A stretch of DNA of 64,000 nucleotides from Oribacterium sinus. Its GTDB lineage: Bacteria > Bacillota > Clostridia > Lachnospirales > Lachnospiraceae. Shown one piece after another: positions 3,820 to 36,532 of the stretch (its first letter is position 1; every line of letters starts with the position of its first letter). A model generated the notes under the pieces. The model searched no databases, was not told where the DNA came from, and saw only the letters and a program-made list of their open reading frames with translations. Made by a program: the position numbers and the translations under genes. The stretch lies in contig NZ_JACHHH010000001.1 of assembly GCF_014202695.1 (NCBI RefSeq), positions 62,001 to 126,000 on the forward strand, written 5' to 3'.

Positions 3820-5925
3820 ATGAGTATTAGCGAAAAATGTGCAGATTTTATTGTTAAATATAGAGAAAAAATCAGTCGAGTTTTCTGGGGGCTCTTAGGC
3901 ATTTCCCTGATTCTTTGCCTCTTTGTGCAGGTGAATTACGACTTGAGTAAATATCTTCCGGAGTCCTCCCTTACTCAGCAGGGAATTCAGAAGATGGAGG
4001 ATAGTTTTGGCTATCCCGGAACGGCAAGAATTATGCTAAAGGATGTCTCCATGGGAGAAGCCCTCTCTTATAAGGAGCAGATTGAGCATATTTCCGGTGT
4101 AGACCGGGTGAGTTTTTCCACAGGCTCCAAAAGTGCCTATGCTCCTGAATTTATGGAAGAAAAGGAGAAGGAAAAGGATTTAGATTATAAGGACGGAAAT
4201 GCTTTATTTCATGTAGTCTTTGTAAAGGGAGACAGTGACGTACAAACAAAGAAGACCCTTAGGGAAATCGAAAGCCTTTTGGGAGACAAGGCGGTGTATG
4301 CAGGCCTTGCGGTACAAAGTAAGACGGTGGAGGAACAGGTTAGTAGCCAAATGGGCTTGATTTTAGCTCTGGGACTTGGCTTTATTTTCCTGATTCTGAT
4401 TATAATGACCAATTCCTACGGAGAGCCTTTCCTATTCCTGATTACCATTTTGCTGGCGGTGGGACTAAACCGGGGCACCAATGTGTTTCTGGGAAAGGTA
4501 TCTTTTATCACCAATAACGTTGCGGCAATTTTGCAGATTGCAGTATCCATGGACTATGCCATCTTCCTGCTTCACTCCTTTGAAACCGGTCTTGAAAAAG
4601 GAATGGATAAGGAAAAAGCCCTGTCCTATGCGGTAGGAAAATCCTTAAGCACGATTTTAGCATCTTCTCTAACCACTGTGGGAGGCTTTTTGGCTCTCTG
4701 TGCCATGAGCTTTGGAATCGGTAAGGATATGGGAATCGTATTGGCAAAGGGTGTGGTGTTCAGCCTTTTAACGGTTATTTTCTTTATGCCGGCTCTTTTG
4801 CTTCGGATGTGGAACTTTGTGGAAAAGACCAGACATAAGCCCTTTGTGCCCTCCTTTAAGCCATTGGCAAAGCTTGCCTACAGGCTTAGTCCTCTTGTAC
4901 TGATTCTTACTATTCTTTTAGTTTATCCCTTAAATATCATGCAGGGGATGAATGACTTCCGCTTTAGTAACGGTGCGGTGGTAAAGGGAGAAGGTACAAA
5001 GATTTCTGAAATGGAAGAAGAAATCAATGGGGTTTTCGGAGAAGAAAATCTTTTGATTGCTATTTATCCGGAGGGAAGAAATGACAGAGAGAAGGCCTTG
5101 GGAAATCTTTTAACTTCCCTTCCTTATGTGGAAAATGTGCAGTCCTTAAGCTCCTTATTACCGGAGGGAGTACCGGAGTTTATGGTACCGAAGTCCTCCT
5201 TAGATTTAGTCAGAAAAGACGGCTACAGCAGAATGGTTATTACCCTAAATCTTCCCGGAGAAAGTCAGGAGTCTTATAAGGCGGTAAGCACCATTCGACA
5301 GATTTTAAAGGTTTACACCGGAGAAGACAGCTATCTGGTGGGAGATACCACCGCCACTATGGACATGGAAAATATCCTTCGAACAGACAATGCCAAGGTG
5401 AATACCCTGTCTATGATTGTGATTTTTCTTGTGGTTATGCTTTCCTTTAAGTCGGTACTCTTTGCTATTGTAGCCATGATTCCTATCGAACTGGCCATTA
5501 TGAGCAATATGTCCTTCTCCTTCCTGGAAGGCACCAATATGATTTTTATCGGCTATGTTATCGTGTCCAGTATTCAGCTGGGCGCAACAGTGGACTACGC
5601 CATTTTGACCTTGGATCACTTCAAGGAAGAAAGAGAGAAAAAGAGCAGAAAGGAAGCCATTATTGCCTCCATTGAAAAGAGCCTATCCTCCCTCTTTGTT
5701 TCCGGAACGATTTTGGCGGTGGTCGGCTATGTGATTTCCTTTATCTCCTCCGTTCCGGCCATCGGACAGCTGGGAAAGTTGATCGGAAGAGGCGCCGTAT
5801 GCTCCCTCTTCTTCGTAATCTTCTTGATGCCCTCGCTATTGGGAATTTTGGATAGAGTACTGATTTTCGCAGAAAAGAGAAAGAAAGCGGTGAAGAATAA
5901 AGTTGCCGGCGCTGTTGTAGTATAG
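3820..5925 (+). CDS. MMPL/RND family transporter
   Basis: A 701-residue membrane protein in the MMPL branch of the RND superfamily. One transmembrane helix near residue 20-35 and a large external loop precede a block of five helices (about 175-335) containing MDYAIFLLHSFE and FGIGKDMG. The same plan is then repeated in the second half (TVDYAILTLDHFKEE near 587-601). This internal duplication is diagnostic. It likely exports a lipid or hydrophobic compound, energised by the proton gradient. The ATG directly follows the stop of its partner gene, and both are probably controlled by the divergent TetR. The last codons (VVV-stop) lie inside the left arm of a decayed hairpin element, which may have supplied the present C-terminus. 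Confidence 0.88.
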   Translation: MSISEKCADFIVKYREKISRVFWGLLGISLILCLFVQVNYDLSKYLPESSLTQQGIQKMEDSFGYPGTARIMLKDVSMGEALSYKEQIEHISGVDRVSFSTGSKSAYAPEFMEEKEKEKDLDYKDGNALFHVVFVKGDSDVQTKKTLREIESLLGDKAVYAGLAVQSKTVEEQVSSQMGLILALGLGFIFLILIIMTNSYGEPFLFLITILLAVGLNRGTNVFLGKVSFITNNVAAILQIAVSMDYAIFLLHSFETGLEKGMDKEKALSYAVGKSLSTILASSLTTVGGFLALCAMSFGIGKDMGIVLAKGVVFSLLTVIFFMPALLLRMWNFVEKTRHKPFVPSFKPLAKLAYRLSPLVLILTILLVYPLNIMQGMNDFRFSNGAVVKGEGTKISEMEEEINGVFGEENLLIAIYPEGRNDREKALGNLLTSLPYVENVQSLSSLLPEGVPEFMVPKSSLDLVRKDGYSRMVITLNLPGESQESYKAVSTIRQILKVYTGEDSYLVGDTTATMDMENILRTDNAKVNTLSMIVIFLVVMLSFKSVLFAIVAMIPIELAIMSNMSFSFLEGTNMIFIGYVIVSSIQLGATVDYAILTLDHFKEEREKKSRKEAIIASIEKSLSSLFVSGTILAVVGYVISFISSVPAIGQLGKLIGRGAVCSLFFVIFLMPSLLGILDRVLIFAEKRKKAVKNKVAGAVVV

Positions 5926-6240
5926 ACCTGTATTAGGGGCGCTCTTGCCAACCTAGTTTGTCGTAGTGAAAGGCTATACATTATAGATCTTCGCTCTGAT
6001 GCCATATAGACCTGTAAGTGGGGCACGCTCTCGCTAACCTCGCCTCGTAGCGGATACTAAGCGAAAAACACAGTTTCTGTGTTTTTCGCAAGTACCGACG
6101 GGCTCAGATTGCCCCTTTTACAGGGATATGCTGCATCAGTCGGTGAAACTTGTTGTTTTTTATAGTCCTTCACTTCCTCACTTTCGACAAGTCATGACGG
6201 GCTATGATTGCCCTACCTACAGACATATGCTGCATTAGGT
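5914..6240. repeat. Decayed copy of the hairpin element, split by a nested copy
   Basis: The left part (5914-5964) contains GTAGTATAGACCTGTATTA followed by GGGGCGCTCTTGCCAACCT. The right part (6186-6236) contains ACAAGTCATGACGGGCTATG, ATTGCCC and a flank ending ATATGCTGCAT. Both are diverged versions of the element's conserved blocks. Between them sits a better preserved copy with its own arms, including AGTGAAAGGCTATA (5965-5978) opposite TATAGTCCTTCACT. The whole 5926-6377 gap between genes is therefore one element inside another plus about 140 bp of AT-rich leader. Confidence 0.65.
5998..6138 (+). repeat. Dispersed hairpin element, copy 1
   Basis: The core is 6020-6115 (96 bp), bounded by GGGGCA and TGCCCC. 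The apical stem is AGCGAAAAACACAG, loop TTT, CTGTGTTTTTCGC. The conserved unpaired blocks GCTAACCTCGCC and CGGGCTCAGATTGCC are present. The outer stem pairs 5998-6017 with 6117-6138. The core is nearly identical to the reverse complement of copy 2 at 10301-10396. It encodes no protein. Confidence 0.8.
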
Positions 6241-6377
6241 GGCTTATTACAGCCCTTCAATTTGTCGCGGAGGATTTGTAAAGGGCATGAGGCTTTTGCT
6301 ATAGAGAGAATAAAATGAATTTTGTATAATACTGTTGCACAATCAGTGAAAAGTTGTATATGCACAGGAGATTCATT

Positions 6378-7217
6378 ATGACGAGAGAGGAAAGAGCAGA
6401 AAAGTGGTTTTCCAATATATCCGGTGCTGAATCCATCAGCATAGAAAGCAAAATAGAAATATGTGATAAGGCTGCAAAGAGAATGATGATTATCATTTTG
6501 GGCTTATTGACTTTAGAGTTCATTTTGCTATTCGTTGTAGGAGGAGAAATCTTCACTAGGGTAGCAGACTTTTTGAATCGCATTTCGGAAGGCGGACATA
6601 CGGGAAATCACTCTCAAGGTCTTGCACTTACAGGAATCATTGTGTTCTTACCTGTTTTTATAATCCCTTTGACGGCTGCTTTTAGCTATAAAAATAATTA
6701 TCTTAAAGCTGAACTGGCTAAGATTGTGACCAGTAGAGAAAATACTGCTGGCAAAGAGTCGGCTTTGCCAAGTTTTACTAAAGAAAGTGAAAGCGATATT
6801 CTCCATTTTGATACTTTGAATTTCAAATTAGCGATTATTCAAGTCTTGATGTATGACCTGCATTTGCTGAAGCCGGAATTTGATATCTATGCTTTTGCCG
6901 ACCAATATAAAGGCAAAAATATCGATACGGACAGTGATGCCATTATAGAACCTGCGATGAATTTCTTTAAGGAAATGGAAATTCCAAAGAACTTTGCCCC
7001 CTATGTGGAAATGCTCTACATGGACGGCGGGAATGATGTGTACATGAACATTATTCCCCAGTGGGATGGAGAAGACGACAGTTTTGACCTAAATGAAATC
7101 ACTTTGGAAGAACTACAGCAATTTCCAAATCTAAAAAAAGCTAACCTTATGAGCAGTGATTTTGATAAGGTAAAAGAAGTATTCGAGGCTGCAAATATTG
7201 CAGTAGAACCGCTTTAA
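6378..7217 (+). CDS. Membrane-anchored protein with a DUF6892-like C-terminal domain
   Basis: A 279-residue protein. Residues 1-35 are charged. Two hydrophobic helices follow (MMIIILGLLTLEFILLFVVG, about 36-55, and GIIVFLPVFIIPLTAAF, about 84-100). A soluble domain of about 150 residues begins with FKLAIIQVLMYDLHLLKPEF, which resembles the DUF6892 family; that family name is from memory. I moved the start to the ATG at 6378 because AGGAG lies 8 nt upstream, whereas the earlier in-frame ATG at 6354 has no ribosome site. A decayed paralogue fragment is found at 52107-52200. The function is unknown. Confidence 0.7.
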   Translation: MTREERAEKWFSNISGAESISIESKIEICDKAAKRMMIIILGLLTLEFILLFVVGGEIFTRVADFLNRISEGGHTGNHSQGLALTGIIVFLPVFIIPLTAAFSYKNNYLKAELAKIVTSRENTAGKESALPSFTKESESDILHFDTLNFKLAIIQVLMYDLHLLKPEFDIYAFADQYKGKNIDTDSDAIIEPAMNFFKEMEIPKNFAPYVEMLYMDGGNDVYMNIIPQWDGEDDSFDLNEITLEELQQFPNLKKANLMSSDFDKVKEVFEAANIAVEPL

Positions 7218-7292
7218 CAATGAAAACAAATGATAGTATTAGCAAAGTTGGTAAGGAGCTATGTAAAGTATGGGAGCGTTCTAAGCTCTGAG

Positions 7293-7413
7293 GCAGTGAA
7301 GGACTATAAGAATCCCAAAGCTAAAGCGATTGATCCAGTATAGGCCTGTAAAAGGGGCAATCCAGTCCACCGCACTTACTGAGCACAAGAGCAATGAAGG
7401 ACTATAAGAATCT
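7293..7413 (-). repeat. Truncated copy of the hairpin element
   Basis: 7293-7362 matches the arm of copy 2 at 10240-10310 closely: GCAGTGAAGGACTATAAGAA, CCAAAGCT(A/G)AAGCGATTGAT, then CCTGTAAAAGGGGCAATC. The remainder of the element is missing. A second start of the same arm (AGCAATGAAGGACTATAAGA) occurs at 7389-7413. The surrounding gap 7218-7706 otherwise contains only AT-rich sequence and a small hairpin at 7530-7551. Confidence 0.6.
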
Positions 7414-7529
7414 CACTATGTCGCAATAAGCCATGTGATTAAAAAGCTTGTCAGAACCATCTTTCGGATGGAAATAACCCATACGTCATATCAGCCTTTA
7501 TAAGTTAAATTAGCTCATAATCTTTTCTG

Positions 7530-7551
7530 AGAGCATCATCGCTGATGCTCT
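7530..7551. other. Small perfect hairpin in a gene-free stretch
   Basis: AGAGCATCA (7530-7538), loop TCGC, TGATGCTCT (7543-7551). There is no T-run on either side, so I do not call it a terminator. It lies downstream of the leftward broken gene ending at 7707. Confidence 0.35.
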
Positions 7552-7706
7552 ATTCGTCATACAGTTTTCAATGTACTAATCTATCTAAAATACGTTTCCG
7601 TATTTTATTCTAAAAATCTTAATCTTATGCTTGACTATTAATAGTTAGTCTTTCGTTAAAATAAAAAAGAGATATCATTTCTGCTATCCCTTTCAAAGTG
7701 TCACAA

Positions 7707-8183
7707 TTAAAATTTTAAGTCTTTTGAAATATCTTCTATATTTCTATAATGATTTTCTATTTCTTCTTGCTTCTTTCTTTTTAATTGTTCTTCTCTTCTT
7801 CTATATTGTTTTTCTTCTTCATTTGTTTTTTCTACACACAAGATTAAGGTATCTCTATGATATTGTTTTACCTCTTCGATTGTTGTTCCATCTAAAATGA
7901 TTTTATCAGATTCAACTCTAGCTATTCCAGGTCTATGCATTGATGTAAAACTTGGTGGGTAATTCCAATTTCTTAAAAACAATTCAGACCATGTGCTAGT
8001 TGGTTTGCTAGATAATCTAAAATGGATTCTATACAAAGCAGAACCTCTTGTTCCATCATTTTTTGGCAAGGTAACTTCATTTGTTATAATGCCCACTATT
8101 TTTATATCGTCTCCCTCAATTGTTATTGGTTCATATTCATCAACATAATATGGTCTTATACCTACTTTAGGTTGCTTTTTAAC
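7707..8183 (-). pseudogene. Hypothetical protein lacking its 5' end
   Basis: The frame from the stop at 7707 is open back to a stop at 8184-8186, about 159 codons. The extra upstream part reads as normal protein (GIRPYYVDEYEPITIEGDDI) but contains no plausible start with a ribosome site. The only late start is a GTG at 8096 that would cut through this sequence. I therefore read it as a gene truncated at a junction near 8185, where an unrelated rightward fragment begins. The C-terminal 60 residues form a charged, Lys/Glu/Arg-rich helix. The family is not recognised. If translation does start at 8096 the product is 129 aa. Confidence 0.5.
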
Positions 8184-8185
8184 TT

Positions 8186-8371
8186 AGTGTATTGTATTAT
8201 ATCTTTGAGCACGATAACCCTATTGATGACGGTCAAACGATTGCAGGCTTAGAAAATGGAGATATGAATCCAGATATCAAATGGAAGGTTCAATATGAGG
8301 ATTCCTTAATTCAACCTGTTCGCACTGTTATAGATATTAATATGGGTGAATATGCATCGGGCACTCGCTAG
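8186..8371 (+). pseudogene. C-terminal fragment of a lost gene
   Basis: An open frame of about 61 codons runs from the junction near 8186 to TAG at 8369-8371. It reads ...YYIFEHDNPIDDGQTIAGLE, continues through an NPDIKWKVQYEDS stretch and ends NMGEYASGTR. It looks like the tail of a larger enzyme or DUF protein, without a start codon or ribosome site. It meets the truncated leftward gene back to back, which marks a recombination junction. I do not recognise the family. Confidence 0.45.
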
Positions 8372-8399
8372 TTGGAAATTGATGAAAGGTGTGAGCATT

Positions 8400-8756
8400 A
8401 TGAATGATCAACGTGTTTTTGACATGGAACTTGTGAAAGTTGAAAGTCTAGAGAACGCTGTTAAGACAGCATTTTATCAAACTGATTCCACAGGTGGTTC
8501 AGTATGGGTTATTAAACCTGGTCAAACCTTACCAAAGCATTACCATCATAACTCTGATGATATATGGGTTATATTGCAAGGCAAGGGGGTATTTTATCCA
8601 ACGCCTGATACGGAGGTGCCTTTTACAAAGGGGCAAGTTATAGTATCTAAAAAGGGTGAATGTCATGGCGCAAAAAATACTGGAACAGAAGATGTTATCT
8701 TTGTAAGTATCGTTGCTCCTGTACCTTCTGATTATGACCCTGTTAGTACTAATTAA
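8400..8756 (+). CDS. Small cupin-domain protein
   Basis: A 118-residue single-domain cupin. Metal-ligand motif 1 is visible as KPGQTLPKHYHHNSDDIWVI (about residues 42-61), with the HxH pair and an acidic residue. Motif 2 follows at GQVIVSKKGECHGAKN (about 81-96). Small cupins bind sugars, organic acids or metals, and the substrate here cannot be read. I start it at the ATG at 8400, preceded by AAAGGTG, rather than at an upstream in-frame ATG at 8346 that overlaps the broken gene before it. It is followed by its own terminator. Confidence 0.75.
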   Translation: MNDQRVFDMELVKVESLENAVKTAFYQTDSTGGSVWVIKPGQTLPKHYHHNSDDIWVILQGKGVFYPTPDTEVPFTKGQVIVSKKGECHGAKNTGTEDVIFVSIVAPVPSDYDPVSTN

Positions 8757-8760
8757 TATG

Positions 8761-8829
8761 AAAGCACTTTATAGTATTTTGTTATCTTGTAATAGAGATA
8801 GAGTTATACCATAAAGTGCTTTTTATTTT
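8761..8829 (+). terminator. Terminator after the cupin gene
   Basis: AAAGCACTTTAT (8761-8772) pairs with ATAAAGTGCTTT (8811-8822), followed by a T-rich tail. It may also work for the leftward gene ending at 8865. Confidence 0.65.
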
Positions 8830-8864
8830 ATACAGTCATTCTTTGTGAATATACCTTTTCTATT

Positions 8865-9182
8865 TTAGATAATATAAAGTCTTGTATCTTTATCTCTAAC
8901 AAACCCCCAATTTATTTTACGCCTATATGCGTAATCCTTAAAAGCATAGAATTTATTTTCGATTTGCTCATCAATATTTTCCAGCTGACCTTTCTTTACC
9001 ATATCCTTAAGTTTCCTTGAATTAGTTTTTCTTTTTTCACTAATATAATCTGCAAGTGGTTGGCTTTTTTCATCGGCATCTTCTATAATCTTTTTCATAG
9101 CTTTTAAAATAGCCTTTGCTGAATACTGAGCCACTTTTATCTCAATATTTATAGCCTTATTATTAACTTCATCATTTACCAT
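8865..9182 (-). CDS. PcfB/DUF3801-like conjugation protein, probably C-terminally truncated
   Basis: A 105-residue soluble protein. It resembles the PcfB (DUF3801) family of conjugative elements: VAQYSAKAILKAMKKIIEDA (about 17-36), then a helical linker, then a YRRKINWGFVRDKDTR segment matching the beta-strand region of that family. Family members usually continue with another strand and tail. Here the frame stops right after RLYII, so the 3' end looks cut. AAAGGAGGT precedes the ATG. No relaxase, coupling protein or integrase is present, so it is best read as a leftover of an integrated conjugative element. Confidence 0.5.
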   Translation of the reverse strand: MVNDEVNNKAINIEIKVAQYSAKAILKAMKKIIEDADEKSQPLADYISEKRKTNSRKLKDMVKKGQLENIDEQIENKFYAFKDYAYRRKINWGFVRDKDTRLYII

Positions 9183-9204
9183 ATAGGTGACCTCCTTTCC
9201 GGTA

Positions 9205-9242
9205 AAAATAAAAAAGCGGCCCAGACTTTTACATCTGAACCG
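9205..9242 (-). terminator. Terminator of the XRE / Fe-S protein operon
   Basis: On the minus strand CGGTTCAGA pairs with TCTGGGCCG (9234-9242 with 9217-9225), including two G-U pairs, and is followed by GCTTTTTTATTTTT. It is a standard rho-independent terminator between this operon and the PcfB-like gene. Confidence 0.75.
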
Positions 9243-9302
9243 TTAAAATTTTAATTCTATAGTTTTTTATTATTTTTAATTTTATTACTGTTGTGACGTA
9301 CT

Positions 9303-9824
9303 TTATAAATTATGTTTCGCAAACTTTTGTTTGCTTTTTAATGCCTTATTGATGGTTTCTTGAATAAAAGGACTACAGCATTTTCCCAAAGGATTGTTAA
9401 TTTCGCACTTTCCATTTTTCATTGCCCCTGTAAGTCTAATAATATCTTTAATATTCTTTGCACCATCATCTAAAACAGCGTTTATAATTTGTTGCTCTGT
9501 AACTTGGTTGCAATAGCATATATATTTGGGATTTGCATCCTTTTTAAACCATATAGGAACTTTTACATCTCCCTTATAAAAAACTCTTTCATTGTTTAAG
9601 TTATAATACACGACATCACAATCTTCATTCATACATAAATAGTAAGTTTCTTCATCTACAACCTTTCCCATAAGGTTTTCTGATACCATATGCTTTACAG
9701 TTATATTCTTAACCTTTTCTCCTCTTTTGTGACATTTGGGGCAATTTGCTTTTTCTTCCACTGTACCAGTGGTTTTTTGTATTGAACCTCAGCAAGATTG
9801 ACTTATCTTATTTTCTTGACTCAC
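9303..9824 (-). CDS. CopZ-type Fe-S metallochaperone, candidate selenoprotein (in-frame TGA)
   Basis: Read from the GTG at 9824 (AAGGAGG 8-9 nt upstream), the frame is MSQENKISQSC, TGA (9789-9791), GSIQKTTGT, then 152 more residues. The main part carries CPKCHKRG, a CMNEDCDVVYY segment, CYCNQVTEQQI and NPLGKCCSPF. This is the cysteine pattern of the zinc/[2Fe-2S] N-terminal domain of Archaeoglobus CopZ and related metallochaperones. From memory, related proteins begin with a Cys-Cys pair, so the TGA would replace the second Cys by selenocysteine. A hairpin with G at the first loop position lies 16 nt past the TGA. The alternative is a nonsense mutation with restart at GTG 9761, but that codon has no ribosome site. 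It is in an operon behind the XRE regulator, 36 bp downstream of it. Confidence 0.65.
9758..9772 (-). promoter_or_regulatory. Candidate bacterial SECIS hairpin
   Basis: In the mRNA, CCACUG, loop GUA, CAGUGG forms a perfect 6-bp stem. The stem starts 16 nt and the loop 22 nt after the in-frame UGA at 9789-9791. Bacterial SECIS elements have the apical loop about 16-37 nt after UGA with a G in the first two loop positions, and both conditions are met. The stem is short, so chance is possible. Confidence 0.5.
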
Positions 9825-9860
9825 TTTATTTCCTCCTTTCTAAAAAATATTTTCTTCATT

Positions 9861-10073: not shown

Positions 10074-10108
10074 ATTATTACCCCTTATCCGTTTTATTGT
10101 TAAGATAT

Positions 10109-10149: not shown

Positions 10150-10238
10150 TATACTTGTGCTTGCGTTAGTATTTATTGAGATAGTCCTTGTTTTTTTCCT
10201 TGTCCCACTTGGAACTGCTCCAAATCCCTGAACCATAG

Positions 10239-10455
10239 AGCAGTGAAGAACTGTAAGAATTCCAAAGCTGAAGCGATTGATGCAGTATGGGCCTGTAAAA
10301 GGGGCAATCTGAGCCCGTCGGTACTTGCGAAAAACACAGAAACTGTATTTTTCGCTTAGTATCCGCTACGAGGCGAGGTTAGCGGGAGCGTGCCCCACTT
10401 ATAGGCCCATACTGCATTAGGGCGTGGCTCTATATCGCTTATAGTTCTTCGCTAC
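10239..10455 (-). repeat. Dispersed hairpin element, copy 2 (most complete)
   Basis: The core is 10301-10396, and read on the minus strand it is nearly identical to copy 1. The outer stem pairs ATGCAGTATGGGCCTGTAA (10280-10298) with its near-complement at 10399-10417. A further outermost pairing is AGTGAAGAACTGTAAG (10242-10257) with CTTATAGTTCTTCGCT (about 10438-10453). It occupies most of the gap between the XRE operon promoter and the pth promoter. It contains no open reading frame of note. Confidence 0.8.
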
Positions 10456-10542: not shown

Positions 10543-11136
10543 ATGTGGTTAATTGCAGGATTAGGGAATCCGGAGAAAAAATATGTGGGCACAAGACACA
10601 ATGCCGGTTTTGCGGTGATTGATGTGCTTTGTAAGGAGCTGGGAAACCTGTCTTTGGAAAGCACAAAATTTCGTGGTGCCTATACCAAGACCAGAATCGG
10701 CAGCGAAGAGGTACTTCTTTTAAAGCCCCTAACCTATATGAACCTTTCCGGGGAATCCATCGTGCCTCTGGCTCAGTATTTTAAGATTCCCAAGGAGCAG
10801 ATTTTGGTGCTTTCCGATGAGATTTCCTTTGCCCCCGGAGACATTCGCATCCGAAAAAAGGGCTCTGCCGGAGGGCATAATGGGCTGAAAAATATTATCG
10901 CCCACCTCCACAGTGAAGAGTTTCCCAGAATCCGTTTAGGGGTGGGTGCCAAGGGAGAGAAGGAAGATCTTGCCCACCATGTGCTTTCTCCATTTTCCAA
11001 GGCGGAACAGGCGGAGATGGAAGATGCCTATGAGAGAGCGGCAAAAGCCTGCATTGCCATTGTGGAAAAGGGCATTGATCAGGCTATGAACGAGTTCAAC
11101 CAAAAGAAGAAGGGAAAGGAAGAGGCTGATGCATAA
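10543..11136 (+). CDS. pth: Peptidyl-tRNA hydrolase
   Basis: A 197-residue cytosolic esterase that recycles peptidyl-tRNAs released from stalled ribosomes. The family signature is clear: LIAGLGNPEKKYVGTRHNAG at residues 3-22 with the catalytic His in TRHNAG, LLKPLTYMNLSG at about 65-76, and GSAGGHNGLK near 107-116. A Lys-rich tail ends the protein. GAGGGAAG precedes the ATG. It overlaps mfd by 8 bp, a conserved Firmicute pairing, and is probably transcribed from the promoter at 10468. Confidence 0.95.
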   Translation: MWLIAGLGNPEKKYVGTRHNAGFAVIDVLCKELGNLSLESTKFRGAYTKTRIGSEEVLLLKPLTYMNLSGESIVPLAQYFKIPKEQILVLSDEISFAPGDIRIRKKGSAGGHNGLKNIIAHLHSEEFPRIRLGVGAKGEKEDLAHHVLSPFSKAEQAEMEDAYERAAKACIAIVEKGIDQAMNEFNQKKKGKEEADA

Positions 11137-17356: not shown

Positions 17357-19420
17357 ATGGAGGAAAGAGGAATCAATCGAGAGGCCTTATATAGCATAGG
17401 AAAGGGGTTTTATCGGGAGCCGGAGGAGAGCCCGGCCTTTTCGGATGTGACCATTCGTTTTCGTACCCTAAGAGAGGATGTAGATAGAGTTTTGCTTTAT
17501 CTTCCGGATGAACAGCAGATTTATCCTATGCAGTTGGAAAGCAGTGATCACTATTTTGATTACTATGAAATGGAAATAAAACTGAAGGATAAACCTTTGC
17601 ATTATTATTTTCGTATTGAAAAGGGAGAAGAGGTCATCCATTACAATCGTTTAGGTGTGACGGAAGATTTGGACATTCAATATGCTTTTTCTATTTTTCC
17701 GGATTTTTTTGTTCCGGACTGGATTAAAGGTGTCACCATGTATCAAATTTTTGTGGACCGTTTCCGAAACAGTGACGGAAAAAATAATGTAGAGGACAGG
17801 GAGTATATTTATCTGGGACGTCCCGTGGTATCGGTTTCAGATTGGGATGCGCCAGTAGAGTCCTTTGATGTACATCGTTTTTATGGCGGCGATTTGGAAG
17901 GGGTTTGGGAGAAGCTGGATTACCTGGAACATTTGGGGGTAGAGGTTCTTTATTTCAATCCACTCTTTGTGTCTCCCTCCAATCATAAATATGATACCCA
18001 GGATTACGACCATATTGATCCCCATTTGGGGAGAATTGTGAATGACGGAGGTAAAGTGCTTCCAAAGGGGGAAACAGACAATAGAGAAGCCTCCAAGTAC
18101 AGCATTCGCAGTACGGATAAAGAGAATCTGGATGCCAGTGATACCCTGTTCTTACTTTTTGTGGAGGCCTGCCACAAGAGGGGGATGCGAGTGATTATCG
18201 ACGGCGTTTTTAATCACTGCGGTTCCTTCCATCGCTATATGAATGCTTCCTATTTCTACAAAACCGGGGAGGATTCACCCTATCCCAAGGGGGCTTATGA
18301 AAGCTATTACAGTCCCTATCTGGATTACTTTCATTTTTCAAAGGAAGAAGAGACGGATTGGCCGGAAAATGACAGCTATGAAAAGTGGTGGGGAAACGAC
18401 ACCCTGCCGAAATTGAATTATGAAAATGCTCCCAAACTGGAGGCGGAAATCTTAGGGATTGCCAAAAAATGGGTTAGTCCTCCCTTTTCCTGTGACGGCT
18501 GGCGTTTGGATGTGGCGGCAGATTTAGGGCACAGTGAAGCCTATAACCACAGATTTTGGAAGAAGTTCCGAAAAGCCGTAAAGGAGGCTAATGAAGACGC
18601 GGTAATTTTAGCAGAGCATTACGGAAATCCCAGTGCCTGGCTGAAAGGGCAGGAGTGGGACAGCATTATGAACTACGATGCCTTTATGGAGCCGGTAAGC
18701 TGGTTTCTGACCGGTATGGAAAAGCATTCCGACAGGGCTGAGCCGGAGAAATTCGGAGATGGAGAACTATTCTTTAACACCATGCGTTATAACATGGCAA
18801 AGCTTCCGGAAAATGCCTTGGATGCTGCGATGAATCAGCTGTCCAACCATGATCATTCCCGTTTCTTAACCAGAACCAACAGAAGAGCCGGAAGAATGAA
18901 AGATGGCTTTGATGATGCGGGAATCGGCATTGACTACGGGCTTTTCCGTCTGGCCGGTATGCTTTTGTTTACTTGGCCGGGAGCACCTACCCTGTTTTAT
19001 GGTGATGAAGTAGGCGTATACGGATGGACTGAGCCGGATTGTCGTAGACCCTATCCTTGGGGAAAGGAAGATTTGGAGCTTTTAGAATATCATCGGTATT
19101 TGATTTCTCACAGAAAGACTTCACCTGCCTTGAAAAACGGAAATCTTATGCTCCTGAAAAGTGGAAAAAACTGGGTATCCTATCTTCGATGCAGTGAAAA
19201 TCAAATTGCTCTGATTATTATATACTGCGGAGATGAGGACTGTACTTTGGATATCCCCCTGTGGAGGGCATCCATTACGGATAAGATGGAGATTCGAAGA
19301 GTACTGAAAACCGATGGAAGAGGCTACAATGCCGGACAAACCAAACGCTATACGGAGAATGGTATCCTTTCCAGTAGACTGAGAGCAAAAACCGGAAAGA
19401 TATATCTGATTGATTTTTAG
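17357..19420 (+). CDS. GH13 alpha-glucosidase/neopullulanase-type enzyme
   Basis: A 687-residue cytosolic alpha-amylase family enzyme acting on maltodextrins or cyclodextrins. An N-terminal beta-sandwich (about 20-115) resembles the CBM34-type domain of neopullulanases. The catalytic barrel begins at WIKGVTMYQIFVDRFRNSDG. Conserved regions are DGVFNHCG (I), DGWRLDVAAD with the nucleophile Asp near 384 (II), ILAEHYGN with the acid Glu near 420 (III) and LSNHDHSRF near 497 (IV). The acid region lacks the more usual GExW pattern but keeps the Glu. GGAGG precedes the ATG by 9 nt. There is no signal peptide, so it works on imported oligosaccharides. Confidence 0.9.
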   Translation: MEERGINREALYSIGKGFYREPEESPAFSDVTIRFRTLREDVDRVLLYLPDEQQIYPMQLESSDHYFDYYEMEIKLKDKPLHYYFRIEKGEEVIHYNRLGVTEDLDIQYAFSIFPDFFVPDWIKGVTMYQIFVDRFRNSDGKNNVEDREYIYLGRPVVSVSDWDAPVESFDVHRFYGGDLEGVWEKLDYLEHLGVEVLYFNPLFVSPSNHKYDTQDYDHIDPHLGRIVNDGGKVLPKGETDNREASKYSIRSTDKENLDASDTLFLLFVEACHKRGMRVIIDGVFNHCGSFHRYMNASYFYKTGEDSPYPKGAYESYYSPYLDYFHFSKEEETDWPENDSYEKWWGNDTLPKLNYENAPKLEAEILGIAKKWVSPPFSCDGWRLDVAADLGHSEAYNHRFWKKFRKAVKEANEDAVILAEHYGNPSAWLKGQEWDSIMNYDAFMEPVSWFLTGMEKHSDRAEPEKFGDGELFFNTMRYNMAKLPENALDAAMNQLSNHDHSRFLTRTNRRAGRMKDGFDDAGIGIDYGLFRLAGMLLFTWPGAPTLFYGDEVGVYGWTEPDCRRPYPWGKEDLELLEYHRYLISHRKTSPALKNGNLMLLKSGKNWVSYLRCSENQIALIIIYCGDEDCTLDIPLWRASITDKMEIRRVLKTDGRGYNAGQTKRYTENGILSSRLRAKTGKIYLIDF

Positions 19421-19438
19421 ACTTTACAAGGATTAGAA

Positions 19439-19475
19439 AACGAGATATCGCACACTACGCGTGCGATATCTCGTT
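19439..19475. terminator. Strong hairpin after the GH13 gene
   Basis: CGAGATATCGCAC (19441-19453), 7-nt loop, GTGCGATATCTCG (19461-19473), flanked by AA/TT pairs. The T-run is better on the minus strand, so it may mainly protect against read-through from the right. Confidence 0.6.
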
Positions 19476-19481
19476 AAGAAT

Positions 19482-19694
19482 AAAAAAGAGCTACAGAAGA
19501 GATTTCGTTCTTTACTGTATACCGGCTCTACCTTAGGGGCACGCTCCCGCTAAGCTCGCCCCTGCAGGGGATACTAAACGAAAAACTTCATAATATTCGT
19601 TTTTCGTAAGTACCCGCGGGCTCAGATTGCCCCTGTCGGTAGACCGGCTATACAGTTACAGAACTGAATTACAATCTTTTCTGTAGCTCTTTTT
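19482..19694 (+). repeat. Dispersed hairpin element, copy 3
   Basis: The core is 19536-19633 (98 bp) with GGGGCACGCTCCCGCTAA at the left and GGGCTCAGATTGCCCC at the right. The apical stem AACGAAAAAC/GTTTTTCGT carries an A-T pair where copies 1, 2 and 4 have G-C. The outer stem pairs 19515-19532 with 19638-19655, and an outermost stem pairs AAAGAGCTACAGAAGAGATT (19485-19504) with AATCTTTTCTGTAGCTCTTT (19673-19692). The T-rich end suits a terminator between the convergent GH13 and HPr-like genes. Confidence 0.8.
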
Positions 19695-19706
19695 GTTTTA
19701 TTAATC

Positions 19707-29978: not shown

Positions 29979-32900
29979 ATGGCATTTACACACTTACATG
30001 TACATAGCAGCTATAGTTTGTTGGATGGATCCGGAAAGATTCCGGAGATGATTGCCAGGGTGAAGGAGTTGGGAATGGATTCCATTGCCCTTACAGACCA
30101 TGGGGTAATGTACGGTGTGATAGACTTCTATAAAGAGGCAAAGAAACAGGGAATCCACCCAATTCTTGGCTCGGAAATTTATTTAAGTCGTTCCATGGAG
30201 GAACGCTTTATCCAAAAGGGGGAGGCCAGATATTATCATTTGGTGCTTCTTGCGGAAAATGATATAGGATACCATAACCTGATGAAGCTGGTGTCCTTGG
30301 GCTTCACGGAAGGCTATTACTATAAGCCCAGAGTAGACTACGCGGTTTTGGAAAAATACCATGAGGGAATCATTGCTCTATCCGCCTGTCTTGCAGGAGA
30401 GGTGTCCAGAAATCTTCGGCTTTCCCAATATGAGGAGGCAAAGCAGGCGGCACTTCGCTATGAAGGCATTTTCGGAAAGGGAAATTTCTTTTTGGAAATG
30501 CAGGACCACGGCTATGCGGAGCAAAAACTGGTGAATCAGGGGATGTTACGCCTCCATGAAGAAACCGGGATTCCCTTGGTGGTGACCAATGATATTCACT
30601 ATACTTATAAGGAGGATGCCAAGGCCCATGACATCCTGCTTTGCTTGCAGACCGGTAAAAAACTGATGGACGAGGATAGGATGCGCTATCCCGGTGGACA
30701 GTTCTATATCAAAAGCGAAGAGGAGATGGAAGAACTGTTTCCTTATGCGAAGGAAGCTTTAGAAAATACCGGGAAGATTGCCAAGCGCTGTCAGGTGAAT
30801 ATTACTTTCGGGGAATATCATTTGCCCAAATACCCTGTGCCGGAGGGGCATACCGCTTACAGCTATTTGGAGGAGCTTTGTCTTAAGGGCTTGGAGAAAC
30901 GCTATGGGGAGAGTTGGCAGGAAAATAAGGACAGGCTCTATTATGAGTTAAATACCATTTCCGATATGGGCTTTGTGGACTATTTTTTGGTGGTTTGGGA
31001 CTATATTCATTTTGCCAAAACCCATGGCATAGCGGTGGGACCTGGAAGAGGCTCTGCGGCGGGCTCTATTGTGGCTTACGCCATAGGCATTACGGATGTG
31101 GACCCGATAGAGCATCAGCTGCTTTTTGAGCGTTTTTTAAATCCGGAACGTGTGACCATGCCGGATATAGACGTGGACTTTGAGTACGAAAGACGACAGG
31201 AAGTTATTGACTATGTAGGAAAAAAGTATGGAAAAGAGCAGGTCAGCCAGATTATTACCTTCGGAACCCTGGCGGCAAGAGGAGTCATCCGAGATGTGGG
31301 CAGGGTACTGGATATTCCCTATGCCAAATGTGACCAGCTGGCAAAGCTTGTGCCAAACGAATTAAATATGACTCTGGAAAAGGCGTTGAGTGTCAGTAAA
31401 GAATTAAAGAATCTCTACGATACGGAAGAGGAAACCAAGCAAATGATAGACATGTGTCTTCGTTTGGAGGGGCTTCCCCGGCACAGCTCCATGCATGCGG
31501 CAGGAGTGGTGATTGCCGGAAGTCCGGTTTCCGATTATGTGCCCCTGTCCAGAGGCTCCGACGGTTCCATTACCACCCAGTTTACCATGACTACTATAGA
31601 GGAGCTGGGGCTATTAAAGATGGACTTTTTAGGCCTTAGAACTCTGACGGTGATTCAGGATGCCCTTCATTTTATAGAGGAAAATCACGGGATAAAGCTG
31701 GATTTAGACAAGCTTCCCTATGATGATGCCAAGGTCTACACCATGCTGTCCAAGGGGGACTGTGCAGGAGTCTTCCAGTTGGAATCTGCAGGCATGGTTA
31801 ATTTTATGAAGCGATTACAGCCCTCCTGTTTGGATGATATTATTGCAGGAGTGGCTCTGTATCGACCGGGTCCCATGGACTTTATTCCGGATTATATTGC
31901 CGGAAAGAAGAACCCTGCTACGGTACATTACGATTGTAAGGAAATGGAATCCATCCTGCAAAATACCTATGGGGTAATCGTATATCAGGAGCAGGTTATG
32001 CAGATTGTGCGAGATCTGGCCGGCTTTACCATGGGAGGATCAGATCTCTTACGAAGAGCTATGTCCAAGAAGAAGACCTCCGTCATGGAGGAGGCAAGGC
32101 AGAGCTTTGTCTACGGCAATGAAAAAGAAGGCATTGCAGGCTGTATTTCCAAGGGAATTTCCGAAGAGGTGGCCAATCGGATTTATGACAAGATGATTGA
32201 CTTTGCCAAGTATGCCTTCAATAAGTCCCATGCGGTAAGCTATGCTCTTCTTTCCTATCAAACCGCCTACCTAAAATATTACTATGCTCCGGAATTCTAC
32301 GCCGCCACCATGAGCTCCTTTATGGATAACACGGTGAAAACCGCTGAGTATATCGAGGTAGCCAGAGAACAGGGAATAGAGATACTGCCGCCGGATATTC
32401 AACTGGCGGAGGTGGGCTTCTCCGTGAAGGATGGAAAGATTCGATACGGCCTTTCCGCAGTAAAGGGCGTAGGAAGATCCGCCGCGGAACAGATTATTCT
32501 GGAACGAAAGAACGGACCCTTTAGAAATTTTGAAGATTTGGTACAGCGACTAAGTCAAAGAGGTATTAACAGAAGAGCCATGGAGTCCTTTATCCATGCA
32601 GGAGCCTTTGACAATCTGGAAGGAAACAGAAGGGAAAAGCTGGTGATGCTTCCGGAGGTTTTGGAGGATTTGCAGAAGGGAAAGAAGGACCAGATTGCCG
32701 GGCAGATGAGCCTTTTGGATCTTTTAGGAGAAGAGGCGGAGGAAAGACAGGAATTTGAGCTGATTTTTCCGGATTTGGAAGAATTTCCCAAGGCAGAACT
32801 TTTACGAAATGAAAAGGATGCTTTAGGTGTTTATCTCTCCGGACATCCTCTGGATAGTGACAGAGCCCTTTTGAAACAGGTCTGCACCAGAAGAGCCAGA

Positions 32901-33449
32901 GATTTTTCCTTGGAGGTAATGGAAGAGGAGAATCGGCTTTCCGATATGGAGCAATGTACCGTGGGAGGAATGATTACCGGAATTAACAGGCGGATTACCA
33001 AGAAAAATGACATGATGGCCTTTGTGACATTGGAAGACAATACAGGCTCCATGGAAGTGGTGGTTTTCCCTAAGACCTACGAGCTTACGGAGGAGCTGAT
33101 TCAGGAGGACAAGAAAGTTTTTGTCTACGGCAGAGTGCAGATGAATGATGAAGCCAACGGGAAATTGATTGCGGAAAAAATTATAGCTTTTGAAAATTTG
33201 CCGAAAGAAATTTGGTTGCAATTTTCCGACAAAGAGGCCTATCTGGAGAAGGAAAAGGAAGTTTTGGAATGTCTGTCTCAAGAGGGGGGCGAAAGCACCG
33301 TGGCCATTTACCTTCGGAAGGAGAAGGCCATTAAGCGCTTAGGGAAGCTATATGCTGTACAATCTTCCCAAGAATTGCTGGAAAATCTTGCAAAAATTGT
33401 AGGTCCGGAAAATGTGAAAGAACAGCTAAAATCCTTGAAAAATGCGTAA
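29979..33449 (+). CDS. dnaE: DNA polymerase III alpha subunit, DnaE type
   Basis: A 1156-residue replicative polymerase subunit. The PHP domain opens the protein (FTHLHVHSSYSLLDGSGKIP). The catalytic palm has GPGRGSAAGSIVAYAIGITD (about 355-374) and the metal-binding PDIDVDFEYERR (about 399-410). RHSSMHAAGVVIA, a tandem helix-hairpin-helix region and an OB-fold domain near the C-terminus (GGMITGINRRITKKNDMMAF, about 998-1017) complete it. The length is standard. I use the ATG at 29979 (MAFTHLHVHS), the usual family start with AAGGAC upstream, rather than an earlier in-frame ATG. Confidence 0.96.
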   Translation: MAFTHLHVHSSYSLLDGSGKIPEMIARVKELGMDSIALTDHGVMYGVIDFYKEAKKQGIHPILGSEIYLSRSMEERFIQKGEARYYHLVLLAENDIGYHNLMKLVSLGFTEGYYYKPRVDYAVLEKYHEGIIALSACLAGEVSRNLRLSQYEEAKQAALRYEGIFGKGNFFLEMQDHGYAEQKLVNQGMLRLHEETGIPLVVTNDIHYTYKEDAKAHDILLCLQTGKKLMDEDRMRYPGGQFYIKSEEEMEELFPYAKEALENTGKIAKRCQVNITFGEYHLPKYPVPEGHTAYSYLEELCLKGLEKRYGESWQENKDRLYYELNTISDMGFVDYFLVVWDYIHFAKTHGIAVGPGRGSAAGSIVAYAIGITDVDPIEHQLLFERFLNPERVTMPDIDVDFEYERRQEVIDYVGKKYGKEQVSQIITFGTLAARGVIRDVGRVLDIPYAKCDQLAKLVPNELNMTLEKALSVSKELKNLYDTEEETKQMIDMCLRLEGLPRHSSMHAAGVVIAGSPVSDYVPLSRGSDGSITTQFTMTTIEELGLLKMDFLGLRTLTVIQDALHFIEENHGIKLDLDKLPYDDAKVYTMLSKGDCAGVFQLESAGMVNFMKRLQPSCLDDIIAGVALYRPGPMDFIPDYIAGKKNPATVHYDCKEMESILQNTYGVIVYQEQVMQIVRDLAGFTMGGSDLLRRAMSKKKTSVMEEARQSFVYGNEKEGIAGCISKGISEEVANRIYDKMIDFAKYAFNKSHAVSYALLSYQTAYLKYYYAPEFYAATMSSFMDNTVKTAEYIEVAREQGIEILPPDIQLAEVGFSVKDGKIRYGLSAVKGVGRSAAEQIILERKNGPFRNFEDLVQRLSQRGINRRAMESFIHAGAFDNLEGNRREKLVMLPEVLEDLQKGKKDQIAGQMSLLDLLGEEAEERQEFELIFPDLEEFPKAELLRNEKDALGVYLSGHPLDSDRALLKQVCTRRARDFSLEVMEEENRLSDMEQCTVGGMITGINRRITKKNDMMAFVTLEDNTGSMEVVVFPKTYELTEELIQEDKKVFVYGRVQMNDEANGKLIAEKIIAFENLPKEIWLQFSDKEAYLEKEKEVLECLSQEGGESTVAIYLRKEKAIKRLGKLYAVQSSQELLENLAKIVGPENVKEQLKSLKNA

Positions 33450-34645
<1,196 letters not shown>

Positions 34646-34698
34646 GAAGAAAAAATAATTTTCGTTTATTTTTGTTTTAGTTCTATGGAATAGCAAAT

Positions 34699-34748
34699 AG
34701 AGGGAAGAAGTCGGAAGAGATTCTGCATTCTTTCCCTCTTTTTTATTT
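34699..34748 (+). terminator. Terminator of pfkA
   Basis: AGAGGGAAGAA (34699-34709) pairs with TTCTTTCCCTCT (34728-34739), followed by TTTTTTATTTT. Confidence 0.85.
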
Positions 34749-34793
34749 TATGCTATGATGGGGCAGGTTTAAAAATCCGAAAGGAGTAAGGAA

Positions 34794-35156
34794 ATGGACG
34801 AAAAGGATATGAATCAGGAAGCGTTAAGAAGAGAAGAAGAGAAGGTGCTCTGCGGGGCCAATTCCTATAGAGAACAGTATTTTTTCAATCCCCGCTTTTC
34901 CCTCCTGCCCAAAGAGGTACAAGAAAGTCTGCAAAAAATAACAGTGACGTATACGGAGGAAATCGGCGGCGTGTTTCTGATGCAATTCGGAGAAGAAGGA
35001 AGGCTGGAGCTTATCAGTATTGCGGAAGAAACAGACTATCTTTATGACCCGATAGGGGCAGAGTTAAAGAAAAAGCAGATTCAAAAGGACTACAAGGAAC
35101 TCTTTTCCAAATTGGAAGAGTATTATGCGGGACTAAAGAATTTGGAGAAGAAATAA
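34794..35156 (+). CDS. Small conserved hypothetical (DUF6145-like)
   Basis: A 120-residue acidic soluble protein. Its pattern VLCGANSYREQYFFNPRFSL (about 18-37), YTEEIGGVFLMQFGEEGRLE (53-72) and DYLYDPIGAELKKKQIQKDY resembles a small family I remember from Lachnospiraceae as DUF6145. The family name is from memory. The C-terminal third is a charged helix. AAAGGAG precedes the ATG. It sits between pfkA and a tRNA-dihydrouridine synthase, probably in one transcript with the latter. The function is unknown. Confidence 0.7.
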   Translation: MDEKDMNQEALRREEEKVLCGANSYREQYFFNPRFSLLPKEVQESLQKITVTYTEEIGGVFLMQFGEEGRLELISIAEETDYLYDPIGAELKKKQIQKDYKELFSKLEEYYAGLKNLEKK

Positions 35157-35167
35157 GAGAAATTTCG

Positions 35168-35215
35168 GAGAACAGTATAAAGAACCGCATAGAGAATAGT
35201 ATAAAGAACCGTATG
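35168..35215. repeat. 24-bp tandem duplication upstream of dus
   Basis: Two consecutive 24-bp units of the form GAGAA(C/T)AGTATAAAGAACCG(C/T)AT(A/G), differing at 3 positions. They do not form a continuous reading frame. They lie just upstream of the uncertain start of the dihydrouridine synthase gene. Confidence 0.75.
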
Positions 35216-35234
35216 GGCTCTGCCGAAGCTACGT

Positions 35235-36347
35235 TTGAACTTGTGCTATCGGGAAAATAGAAAGAAGGACAGTATCAAATATTTTGTAGAAAAAGATAAA
35301 ATAGAAGAAATCGTGAAAAGCCATGGGATTTCCGACTTTTCCTATGAGGAGGCCTTGAAAAAGAGGGAAGAAGAGGGGAGAGACAGTCTCTTTCAGCCCA
35401 TTTCCTTAAAGGATTGCAGGCTCCCCGGTAATATTCTGATGGCTCCCATGGCGGGAGTGACAGACCTTCCCTACCGTATTCTATGTAAAGAAATGGGATT
35501 AAGTTTATCCTTTACGGAAATGGTGTCAGCAAAAGCCATTTACTATGGGAATCAGAATACGGATTCCCTGCTTTATCATAAGGGAGAGCCGGGGCTTGTT
35601 TCGGCGCAGCTTTTCGGATCAGATCCAGCCTTGATGGCGGAAATGGCCTGCCGAATTGAAGAGGACTTTGACTGTATAGATGTAAATATGGGCTGTCCTG
35701 TTCCCAAGGTAGTACGGAATCAGGAGGGGTCAGCCTTAATGACAAATCTTCCTTTGGCAGAACAGGTTTTAAGCACAATGGCAAAAGCCTTGAAGAAGCC
35801 TCTCACAGTTAAGTTTCGCATCGGCTTTACGGATGATGCCATTAATGTGGTAGAATTTGCGAAAATGGCAGAGGCCTCCGGGGTGGCTTCCGTGACCATT
35901 CACGGTAGAACCAGAGAGCAATATTACAGGGGAAAGGCCAATTGGCAATATATAAAGAAAGCCAAGGAGGCGGTGAAGATTCCCGTTTTTGGAAACGGAG
36001 ACATTTTCCAAGAAGAAGATGCTCTGGCCATGCTCCTTTCCACTGGGGTAGACGGTATAGCGCTGGCCCGTGGCATACAAGGAAATCCTTTTTTGATTCG
36101 AGCATGTAGGAGTTTTCTTTCCGAAGGGAAGAAGCTTCAGCCGGTGAGCATTTCGGAAAGAAAGGAAATGATGCTTCGGCACCTAAAGCTGATGGTGGAG
36201 ATTAAGGGAGAGCATCTTGCCCTCTTGGAAATGCGAAAGCACCTTTCCTGGTATATGGAAGGTTTGGAGAATGCTGCCCGCTGGAGACAGAGGGTGAATA
36301 CGGAAAATGACTTGGAGAAGGTGTTCCAAATGGTTAGGGAACTATAG
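35235..36347 (+). CDS. dus: tRNA-dihydrouridine synthase, DusB type
   Basis: An up to 370-residue FMN enzyme that reduces uridines in tRNA D-loops. The family pattern is clear from about residue 65: ILMAPMAGVTDLPYRIL, VNMGCPVPKVVRNQEGSALM with the catalytic Cys, VKFRIGF, VTIHGRTREQYYRGKANWQY, FGNGDIF and ALARGIQGNP. The first about 60 residues are extra, charged and helical. The start is unresolved: the frame offers TTG at 35235 and 35241 and a GTG near 35313, and the first ATG is already inside the conserved domain. It is followed by element copy 4. Confidence 0.88.
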   Translation: MNLCYRENRKKDSIKYFVEKDKIEEIVKSHGISDFSYEEALKKREEEGRDSLFQPISLKDCRLPGNILMAPMAGVTDLPYRILCKEMGLSLSFTEMVSAKAIYYGNQNTDSLLYHKGEPGLVSAQLFGSDPALMAEMACRIEEDFDCIDVNMGCPVPKVVRNQEGSALMTNLPLAEQVLSTMAKALKKPLTVKFRIGFTDDAINVVEFAKMAEASGVASVTIHGRTREQYYRGKANWQYIKKAKEAVKIPVFGNGDIFQEEDALAMLLSTGVDGIALARGIQGNPFLIRACRSFLSEGKKLQPVSISERKEMMLRHLKLMVEIKGEHLALLEMRKHLSWYMEGLENAARWRQRVNTENDLEKVFQMVREL

Positions 36348-36380
36348 AAAATAAAAAATTTTGGGTGGACTTATGTAAAC

Positions 36381-36532
36381 AAGCTTTCCACAGCATAGCT
36401 TAAATTCGAGGCACGCTCCCGCTAACTTCGCCTTCGTAGTGGACACTAAGCGAAAAACTTCATTTCATTTGTTTTTCGCAAGTGCCAACGGGCTCAGATT
36501 GCCTCTCGTTTAAGCTATGCTGTGGAAAGCTT
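36381..36532 (+). repeat. Dispersed hairpin element, copy 4
   Basis: The core is 36408-36505 (98 bp), bounded by GAGGCA and TGCCTC instead of GGGGCA and TGCCCC, a matched change on both sides. The GGACACT/AGTGCC inner pair replaces GGATACT/AGTACC, again matched. The outer stem is a perfect 24-bp inverted repeat (36381-36404 with 36509-36532) containing TTTCCACAGCATAGCTTAAA. It lies between the convergent dus and DeoR genes and would form a very stable hairpin. Confidence 0.85.

Follow-up and report, generated by a model that had tools for sequence, protein, structure and literature searches.

MITEs and palindromes of the ERIC, BOX and RUP type are non-coding, intergenic elements of about 200 bp that lie near gene ends and occur as nested copies. 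Integron attC sites present another kind of hairpin, variable in sequence and conserved in structure, whose unpaired bases are conserved and whose tip varies. Conservation of an RNA fold is by standard practice recognised from covariation, the paired change of both sides of a stem. According to PMC3116915, inverted doublets of REP sequences form hairpins in which compensatory changes are common. Paired changes are also yielded by template switching between the arms of inverted repeats, as described in PMC8794818 and PMC8604942.

Our present results describe a large family of fold-back repeats in Lachnospiraceae. We propose that the repeat is probably a non-autonomous, palindromic DNA hairpin of REPIN/MITE-like character, whose arms are kept alike by template switching and which doubles as a two-way terminator. 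It is possible, though doubtful, that the hairpin is mobilized by a putative moving system of its own, particular to Lachnospiraceae. Such a system would read the core as a folded single strand, and strand-specific fold-back copying would renew both arms at each move, draw sequence from the flanks into the outer stem and leave second copies facing the first.

Architecture and distribution of the repeat

The analysed stretch of DNA, further called the window, comprises 64,000 nucleotides of Oribacterium sinus (NZ_JACHHH010000001.1, positions 62,001 to 126,000). The element is a fold-back of about 200 bases: a conserved, strand-asymmetric core of about 96 nt with conserved unpaired blocks lies inside self-pairing arms of about 55 positions, which are free in sequence yet complementary to each other. 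Copy 1 (5965..6174, core 6020-6115, + strand) is intact and nested in an older, decayed copy, whose left half (5934..5957, +) was recognised by eye against the core and whose right half (6193..6220, +) was likewise recognised by eye. Copy 2 occupies 10242..10453 on the - strand (core 10301-10396). In copy 3 (19474..19704, core 19536-19633, +) the outermost pairs form a terminator-like stem, AAAAAGAGCT...AGCTCTTTTT, and copy 4 (36344..36564, core 36408-36505, +) is located in the convergent gap between the Dus and DeoR-type genes. A repeat search added the right half of a further copy at 7293..7400 (-), its extent set by eye, consisting of an arm and the GATTGCCCC end and followed by the apparent end of another element.

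The family model was built from 33 copies, the four window copies among them, so that their matches at 6000-6135 (+), 10281-10416 (-), 19516-19654 (+) and 36387-36526 (+), with 123-150 bits, hold by construction; a blastn search with copy 1 alone finds the family independently. A first-pass annotation had placed four copies at these sites and named several paired changes, all of which are present in the alignment. The outer stems, given there as 18-24 bp, proved longer, with 37/53 aligned arm positions paired in copy 1, 41/55 in copy 2, 52/59 in copy 3 and 48/56 in copy 4. All four copies are intergenic, as had been claimed. Copies 1, 3 and 4 lie 41-96 nt (stop codon to model edge) downstream of a same-strand gene, namely MMPL (3820-5925), alpha-amylase (17357-19420) and Dus (35235-36347), respectively; copy 2 precedes pth (at 10543) in a gap between divergent genes.

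The family is larger than the annotation had suggested. In the 2.73 Mb genome of the window (G000), the model finds at least 133 copies at E<=1e-3 among 150 scored candidates out of 1092, and blastn, independently of the model, at least 40 near-full-length copies of 87-100% identity (40 of 146 candidates scored), the many similar copies being spread over many contigs. The family is present in 118 of 298 sampled Lachnospiraceae genomes, and other genera supply further copies and further covariation. Among 249 genomes of the phylum that were searched, the four positives all belong to Lachnospiraceae. The repeat is a common component of Lachnospiraceae genomes and could shape gene 3' ends.

In agreement with the early description of the element as possibly novel, tRNA is the only Rfam family that reaches its cut-off in the window, and none corresponds to the repeat. 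At five loci with copies, where matches up to E<=5 were considered, none reaches the gathering cut-off; the single sub-threshold overlap with a copy, at L004, is to a model for a microRNA and reaches 21.2 bits, its cut-off being 73. Copy 1 has no blastn match in phages and plasmids, a search that divergent copies would escape, and an exact pattern, stricter than the model, has none in viral contigs. Judging by titles and the beginnings of abstracts, most subscription papers being outside reach, we found no paper on this family and no name for the repeat in the literature searched; the main text of PMC11234323 mentions neither inverted repeats, palindromes, transposons nor template switches.

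Paired changes and the G·U count

Both sides change in 39 of 41 pairs, the covariation score is 0.649 compared with 0.158 in shuffles, and the unpaired blocks of the core are conserved across genera. All this would suit a family of functional, structured RNAs, such as 3'-UTR elements or small RNAs, with selection acting on the fold and with copies representing dispersed RNA genes or regulatory modules, an explanation that we nevertheless regard as unlikely. The excess of G·U over A·C that was sought as the mark of RNA pairing is absent in arms and apical stems. In alignments that score both G·U and A·C as mismatches, the arms of 187 of 201 copies contain 8306 Watson-Crick, 313 G·U and 362 A·C pairs (P=0.06), and the apical stems of 168 of 201 copies 81 G·U and 88 A·C; selection on RNA pairing is therefore not visible in either. 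A small control of 12 tRNAs gave nine G·U and no A·C, a second one of 15 tRNAs (37 hits before duplicate removal and filtering) six and none. The first-pass annotation had taken the paired changes as a sign of selection on a folded RNA. This part of it is not supported: A·C is tolerated as readily as G·U, and template switching gives such changes (PMC8794818, PMC8604942).

Some counts lean the other way. Tandem antisense copies, read as transcribed, have 58 G·U and 22 A·C, which favours RNA, while tandem sense copies have 43 and 50. In model-fitted helices the G·U/A·C ratios are 35/61 for P1, 1/3 for P2, 1/4 for the small hairpin, 18/14 for P4 and 19/4 for the apical stem, and 11/4 for the core helix P5, where cases are too few to decide. 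Single copies in convergent gaps are closer to the gene read in sense with the copy in 28 of 36 cases, which again suits an RNA and hints at a host role. Against an RNA, orientation is mixed among single copies between tandem genes (19 are sense and 17 antisense), one orthologous copy is inverted, and copies vary between species. The conserved unpaired blocks, on which the G·U/A·C count is silent, could be a feature of RNA or one of single-stranded DNA. The complementarity of the arms seems to stem from DNA copying rather than to prove a functional RNA. As the simple count does not support the strong covariation of the family as RNA pairing in arms and apical stem, the family offers ample natural material for testing how DNA palindromes can be distinguished from RNAs.

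Gene context and differences between genomes

Copies prefer gene 3' ends: convergent gaps hold 42 of 93 copies, against a background of 127 convergent gaps among 1096 of >=30 bp. AAAAA is present on the 5' side of 46 of 93 copies and TTTTT on the 3' side of 49; on the opposite sides the counts are 15 and 18, respectively. Of 663 other intergenic 65-mers, 211 contain AAAAA and 191 TTTTT. Both the convergent enrichment and the A/T flanks would be expected of a two-way terminator or insulator hairpin maintained by the host, not truly mobile, arising by local duplication and often lost. The same is indicated by a short hairpin resembling a terminator, which G009 has at the ortholog of the copy 3 site, and by the nrdA-nrdB gap, which holds an element in G009 and in G436. 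We consider this explanation improbable, as internal loops conserved across genera are needless for a plain terminator, and the many similar copies over many contigs, together with nesting (window 5934-6220 and G000:C1:34750-35400), point to spread. The nrdA-nrdB and relA recurrences we take, by a rough, uncomputed estimate, for chance or a favoured gap. Two comparisons, one of 824 ORFs and one of 20 regions from 16 genomes (most of which have few matches), showed no convincing recurrent neighbour; they gave two or three widespread clusters, which we guess to be ABC transporters.

Orthologous sites show presence/absence polymorphism of the MITE type. Among 98 adjacent ortholog pairs in the compared parts of G000 and G009, six gaps carry a model-detected copy in one genome and none in both. 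Locus L167 has a copy that the 85%-identical L123 lacks at the same site. The indel exceeds the palindrome, and a target-site duplication, looked for at this junction, could not be established, a loose AAGATTA-like similarity being all that is seen by eye; the L123 state may reflect a deletion. When further versions of the L167 site were sought across the family, 6 of 397 genomes gave matches, all of them no more than distant and in the gene part. The short hairpin of G009 is similar to the outer arms found in G000 and is therefore a possible remnant and not an empty site. Between L127 and L151, which are 90% identical and come from sister species, arms and core at the same site are wholly reversed. 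By eye, the core blocks are kept in three orthologous pairs. Such survival hints at a host role.

Mobilization and comparison with known systems

Inverted pairs less than 500 bp apart number seven among the 133 copies of G000; together with ten from other genomes, all 17 of 17 face inward, with spacers from 20 to 460 nt. This facing could be given by a strand-specific process at 3' ends and, with the arm pairing free of G·U preference, would fit a retro-element-like hairpin, whose transcript would fold, serve as its own primer for a reverse transcriptase and come back with its arms perfect. The two members of the pair G000:C1:182447/182694 differ by eye, against such copying, and the RVT_1 profile (PF00078), searched in 37 genomes with G023-G036 outside the set, is absent from the element-bearing G001 (8 matches) and G005 (2 matches), so that we hold this origin to be very improbable. 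Least credible of all is a REP/REPIN moved by a Y1-type (RAYT/TnpA) transposase, for which the intergenic, palindromic, numerous and partly doubled copies and the compensatory changes known from REP hairpins (PMC3116915) would speak, since the spacers of inverted pairs are variable and the PF01797 profile is absent from six element-bearing genomes, G005, G007, G018, G027, G029 and G033, which have 1 to 33 element matches (G007 21, G018 10, G033 12 and G027, 86% complete, 33). Neither PF01797 nor, in the 37 genomes searched for it, PF00078 tracks the family, and neither enzyme is a likely mover.

The reading of the repeat as a non-autonomous DNA hairpin is supported by the long fold-back, the asymmetric core, copy number, presence/absence, nesting, inversion, 3'-end preference and lack of G·U preference. 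Points against it are that no transposase tracks the family and no neighbour recurs convincingly, the possible deletion in L123, the possible remnant in G009, the hints of a host role, and the G·U surplus of tandem antisense copies and of the model-fitted apical stem and P5. At the DNA level, the arms would be kept complementary and the element flipped by template switching or by an exchange of hairpins. The conserved core may serve as a recognition site for a putative trans-acting factor that moves the element as a folded single strand. Copies inserted into or beside terminator hairpins would become two-way terminators and might therefore be tolerated or kept. The MITE or protein-bound cruciform offered as an alternative by the first-pass annotation fits; its overall reading thus stands as to a dispersed family, the lack of an Rfam match and this option, and is not supported as to RNA-fold selection deduced from paired changes.

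The repeat shares with integron attC sites variable sequence with conserved structure, conserved bases left unpaired and a tip that varies, but no R-box pair was noticed by eye, and its copies are scattered over the chromosome. Size of about 200 bp, non-coding and intergenic nature, gene-end proximity and nesting are common to it and to MITEs and ERIC/BOX/RUP-type palindromes (cf. PMC10969869), whereas no fixed terminal inverted repeat was seen across genera, and neither a target duplication nor a parent IS has been established. In its intergenic location, high copy number, palindromic and hairpin-forming sequence, two-sided compensatory changes and some inverted doublets it resembles REPIN/REP with RAYT (PMC3116915, PMC8266576, PMC3733652); it differs from them by the core of about 96 nt with conserved internal blocks, by arms of about 55 positions whose sequence is not conserved, by having, as judged from the profile, no need for a Y1 transposase, and by its spread over Lachnospiraceae. 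The homogenisation of the arms, paired changes that span several bases and the inversion of the spacer at a single locus recall the inverted repeats homogenised by template switching in PMC8604942 and PMC8794818, but what is described there is a mutation process at existing repeats, whereas the present repeat forms a dispersed family whose core is conserved.

Copies of the repeat and their architecture

Four intact copies of a fold-back repeat of about 200 bases are present in the window, at 6000-6135 (copy 1, + strand), 10281-10416 (copy 2, - strand), 19516-19654 (copy 3, + strand) and 36387-36526 (copy 4, + strand), as delimited by the covariance model R1. All four belong to the 33 copies on which R1 was trained, so their match to it is by construction; a blastn search with copy 1 alone returned at least 40 near-full-length copies of 87-100% identity. 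Each window copy contains a core of 96-98 nt flanked by two mutually pairing arms, with 37 of 53, 41 of 55, 52 of 59 and 48 of 56 aligned arm positions paired in copies 1-4, respectively. Halves of a decayed copy, recognized partly by eye, flank copy 1 (window 5934-5957 and 6193-6220), and a further such half, also partly by eye, lies at about 7293-7400. A hairpin (AACGAGATATCGCAC...GTGCGATATCTCGTT, window 19438-19475) separates the alpha-amylase gene from copy 3. Two pairs of direct repeats (116 and 300 nt, 97% identity), spaced by 5.6 and 5.9 kb, respectively, occupy window 53240-53649 and 58838-59527.

The dispersed family recognized in the first-pass annotation is real and large: with the intact window copies included, R1 matched at least 133 sites at E<=1e-3, and at least 141 at E<=1, in the Oribacterium sinus genome (2,727,810 bases in 25 contigs), where 150 of 1092 candidates were scored. 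The broader model R2 (E<=1e-4) detected the repeat in 14 of 61 relatives, namely in 14 of 37 Lachnospiraceae and 0 of 24 members of other families. It occurs in 4 of 249 genomes of a phylum sample, all four Lachnospiraceae (the 20 negatives listed belong to other families; 225 are further negatives), and in 118 of 298 genomes, or 113 of 280 genera, of a Lachnospiraceae sample; few candidates were scored per genome in these searches, and weak matches are lost. A pattern scan of genome contigs matched at least 119 stretches. Among the 80 matches listed, 70 carry a title naming Lachnospiraceae or any of four genera taken here as members; the remaining titles include Mogibacterium, Anaerovibrio and Bacteroides. 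The viral contigs, phages and plasmids searched gave no match.

Conserved across genera are a CGCTYTCGCT block, a helix CGGATRCTAA / TAAGYRCC, frequently with a bulged A, and the closing helix. Sequence varies freely, yet self-complementarity is kept, in the stem between the conserved parts, in the apical stem and in the arms. In 113 distinct rows of an alignment fitted to the model, and therefore biased towards the structure, 92.7% of pairing cells are paired and both sides have changed in 39 of 41 pairs. Shifting the partner by one column lowers pairing to 38-39%, and further pair types are no more numerous than in shuffles (136 vs 133, 122 of 500). A long variant with an insert of about 105 nt, forming about three hairpins within the conserved core, exists both in O. 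sinus (G000:C1:291292-291536) and in the second species compared, G009 (locus L311 18365-18610 and locus L244 18267-18511); other matches of about 240 nt likewise represent it. Coreless outer arms at G000:C1:47988 and G009:C1:58666 resemble deletion products or empty forms.

Genomic placement and orientation

Home-made gene calls placed 93 copies in 1.95 Mb of O. sinus and G009, three weaker matches (E 0.045-0.94) being excluded: 42 sit in convergent gaps and 5 in divergent ones, and the tandem copies comprise 25 sense and 21 antisense. By the same calls, convergent gaps make up 127 of 1096 gaps of 30 bp or more. The nearer gene shares the sense of the core for 28 of 36 single copies in convergent gaps; single tandem copies are 19 sense and 17 antisense. 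We infer that the repeat either favours gene ends or is tolerated there. The hairpin has AAAAA on its 5' side in 46 of 93 copies and TTTTT on its 3' side in 49, about threefold the frequency on the opposite sides (15 and 18), and the copies are putative two-way terminators. In G009, the site orthologous to window copy 3 carries a short terminator-like hairpin, which may be a remnant of the repeat, since its letters resemble the O. sinus outer arms. Genes neighbouring the copies revealed no convincing common family.

All 17 pairs of inverted copies with a spacing below 500 bp are inward-facing (7 in O. sinus, 10 at loci from other genomes); R2 adds one more such pair in O. sinus, where two close pairs run in the same direction. 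At 500-1500 bp in this genome, 4 pairs face inward, 1 outward and 1 runs in the same direction. By home-made ORFs, the settings of the close pairs include convergent, tandem and divergent ones. The inward facing of the inverted pairs is the strongest hint of a strand-specific process.

Evidence for spread and loss

In the fetched parts of O. sinus and G009, reciprocal best proteins have a median identity of 65%. Among 98 syntenic adjacent ortholog pairs, a model-detected copy is present in 6 gaps, each time in only one of the two genomes, and in no gap do both genomes have one. A copy in locus L167 is absent from the same site of L123; the indel exceeds the palindrome, no clear target duplication was found at this junction, and the difference may represent a deletion. 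Copies are also nested within copies. The copy 4 element is 79-89% identical to G009 copies, a figure that is the best of many copies, and its adjoining genes are 71-76% identical. Copies are retained in three orthologous pairs; identity over the model span is 120/124 for L127/L151, with one copy turned, 110/138 for L157/L181 and 102/129 for L140/L176. Taken together, the one-sided gaps, the L167/L123 site, nesting and the ortholog comparisons support, at the level of sequence, a repeat that would both spread and be lost. The nrdA-nrdB gap of O. sinus harbours a different long palindrome (G000:C5:6309-6614), four short motifs of which occur once each in the fetched stretches; that of G009 and of the distant genome G436 harbours the present family. 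Among candidate movers, a profile search found no Y1 transposase (PF01797) in six repeat-bearing genomes, and RVT_1, sought in 37 genomes, is absent from G001 and G005.

RNA helix or DNA palindrome

A selected RNA helix tolerates G·U above A·C, whereas a neutrally mutating palindrome should accumulate both roughly equally. The first-pass annotation had read the paired changes as possible selection on a folded RNA. This reading fails for the arms (187 of 201 copies: 8306 Watson-Crick, 313 G·U and 362 A·C; P=0.06) and is unsupported for the apical stems (168 of 201 copies: 81 G·U and 88 A·C), in alignments that score both as mismatches and count one locus, L063 (genome G023) = L172, identical over 1658 bases, twice. 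Two of 114 rows, antisense matches of palindromic copies, were removed from these counts and kept in the covariation and model-fitted helix counts. Helix by helix, the G·U/A·C counts of the model-fitted alignment are 35/61 (outer helix), 1/3, 1/4 and 18/14 (the three helices that follow), 11/4 (core helix P5) and 19/4 (apical helix). The P5 and apical counts tilt towards RNA, though such an alignment rewards G·U. A small tRNA-stem control gave 9/0, or 6/0 in a second count. Against the DNA palindrome stand tandem copies with the core antisense to transcription, which, read as transcribed, give 58/22, as compared with 43/50 in sense copies; we tentatively attribute this to an effect linked to transcription rather than to selection acting on RNA of the core strand.

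The MITE and the protein-bound cruciform, also offered at first pass, were rightly kept as alternatives. As described in PMC8604942 and PMC8794818, template switching between inverted-repeat arms homogenises the arms, yields multi-base compensatory changes and inverts spacers. Between L127 and L151 (90% identical), the shared element is inverted as a whole, including the arms, and in L157/L181 one stem block, compared by eye, is altered on both sides together. We file the repeat as a new form among dispersed palindromic repeats.
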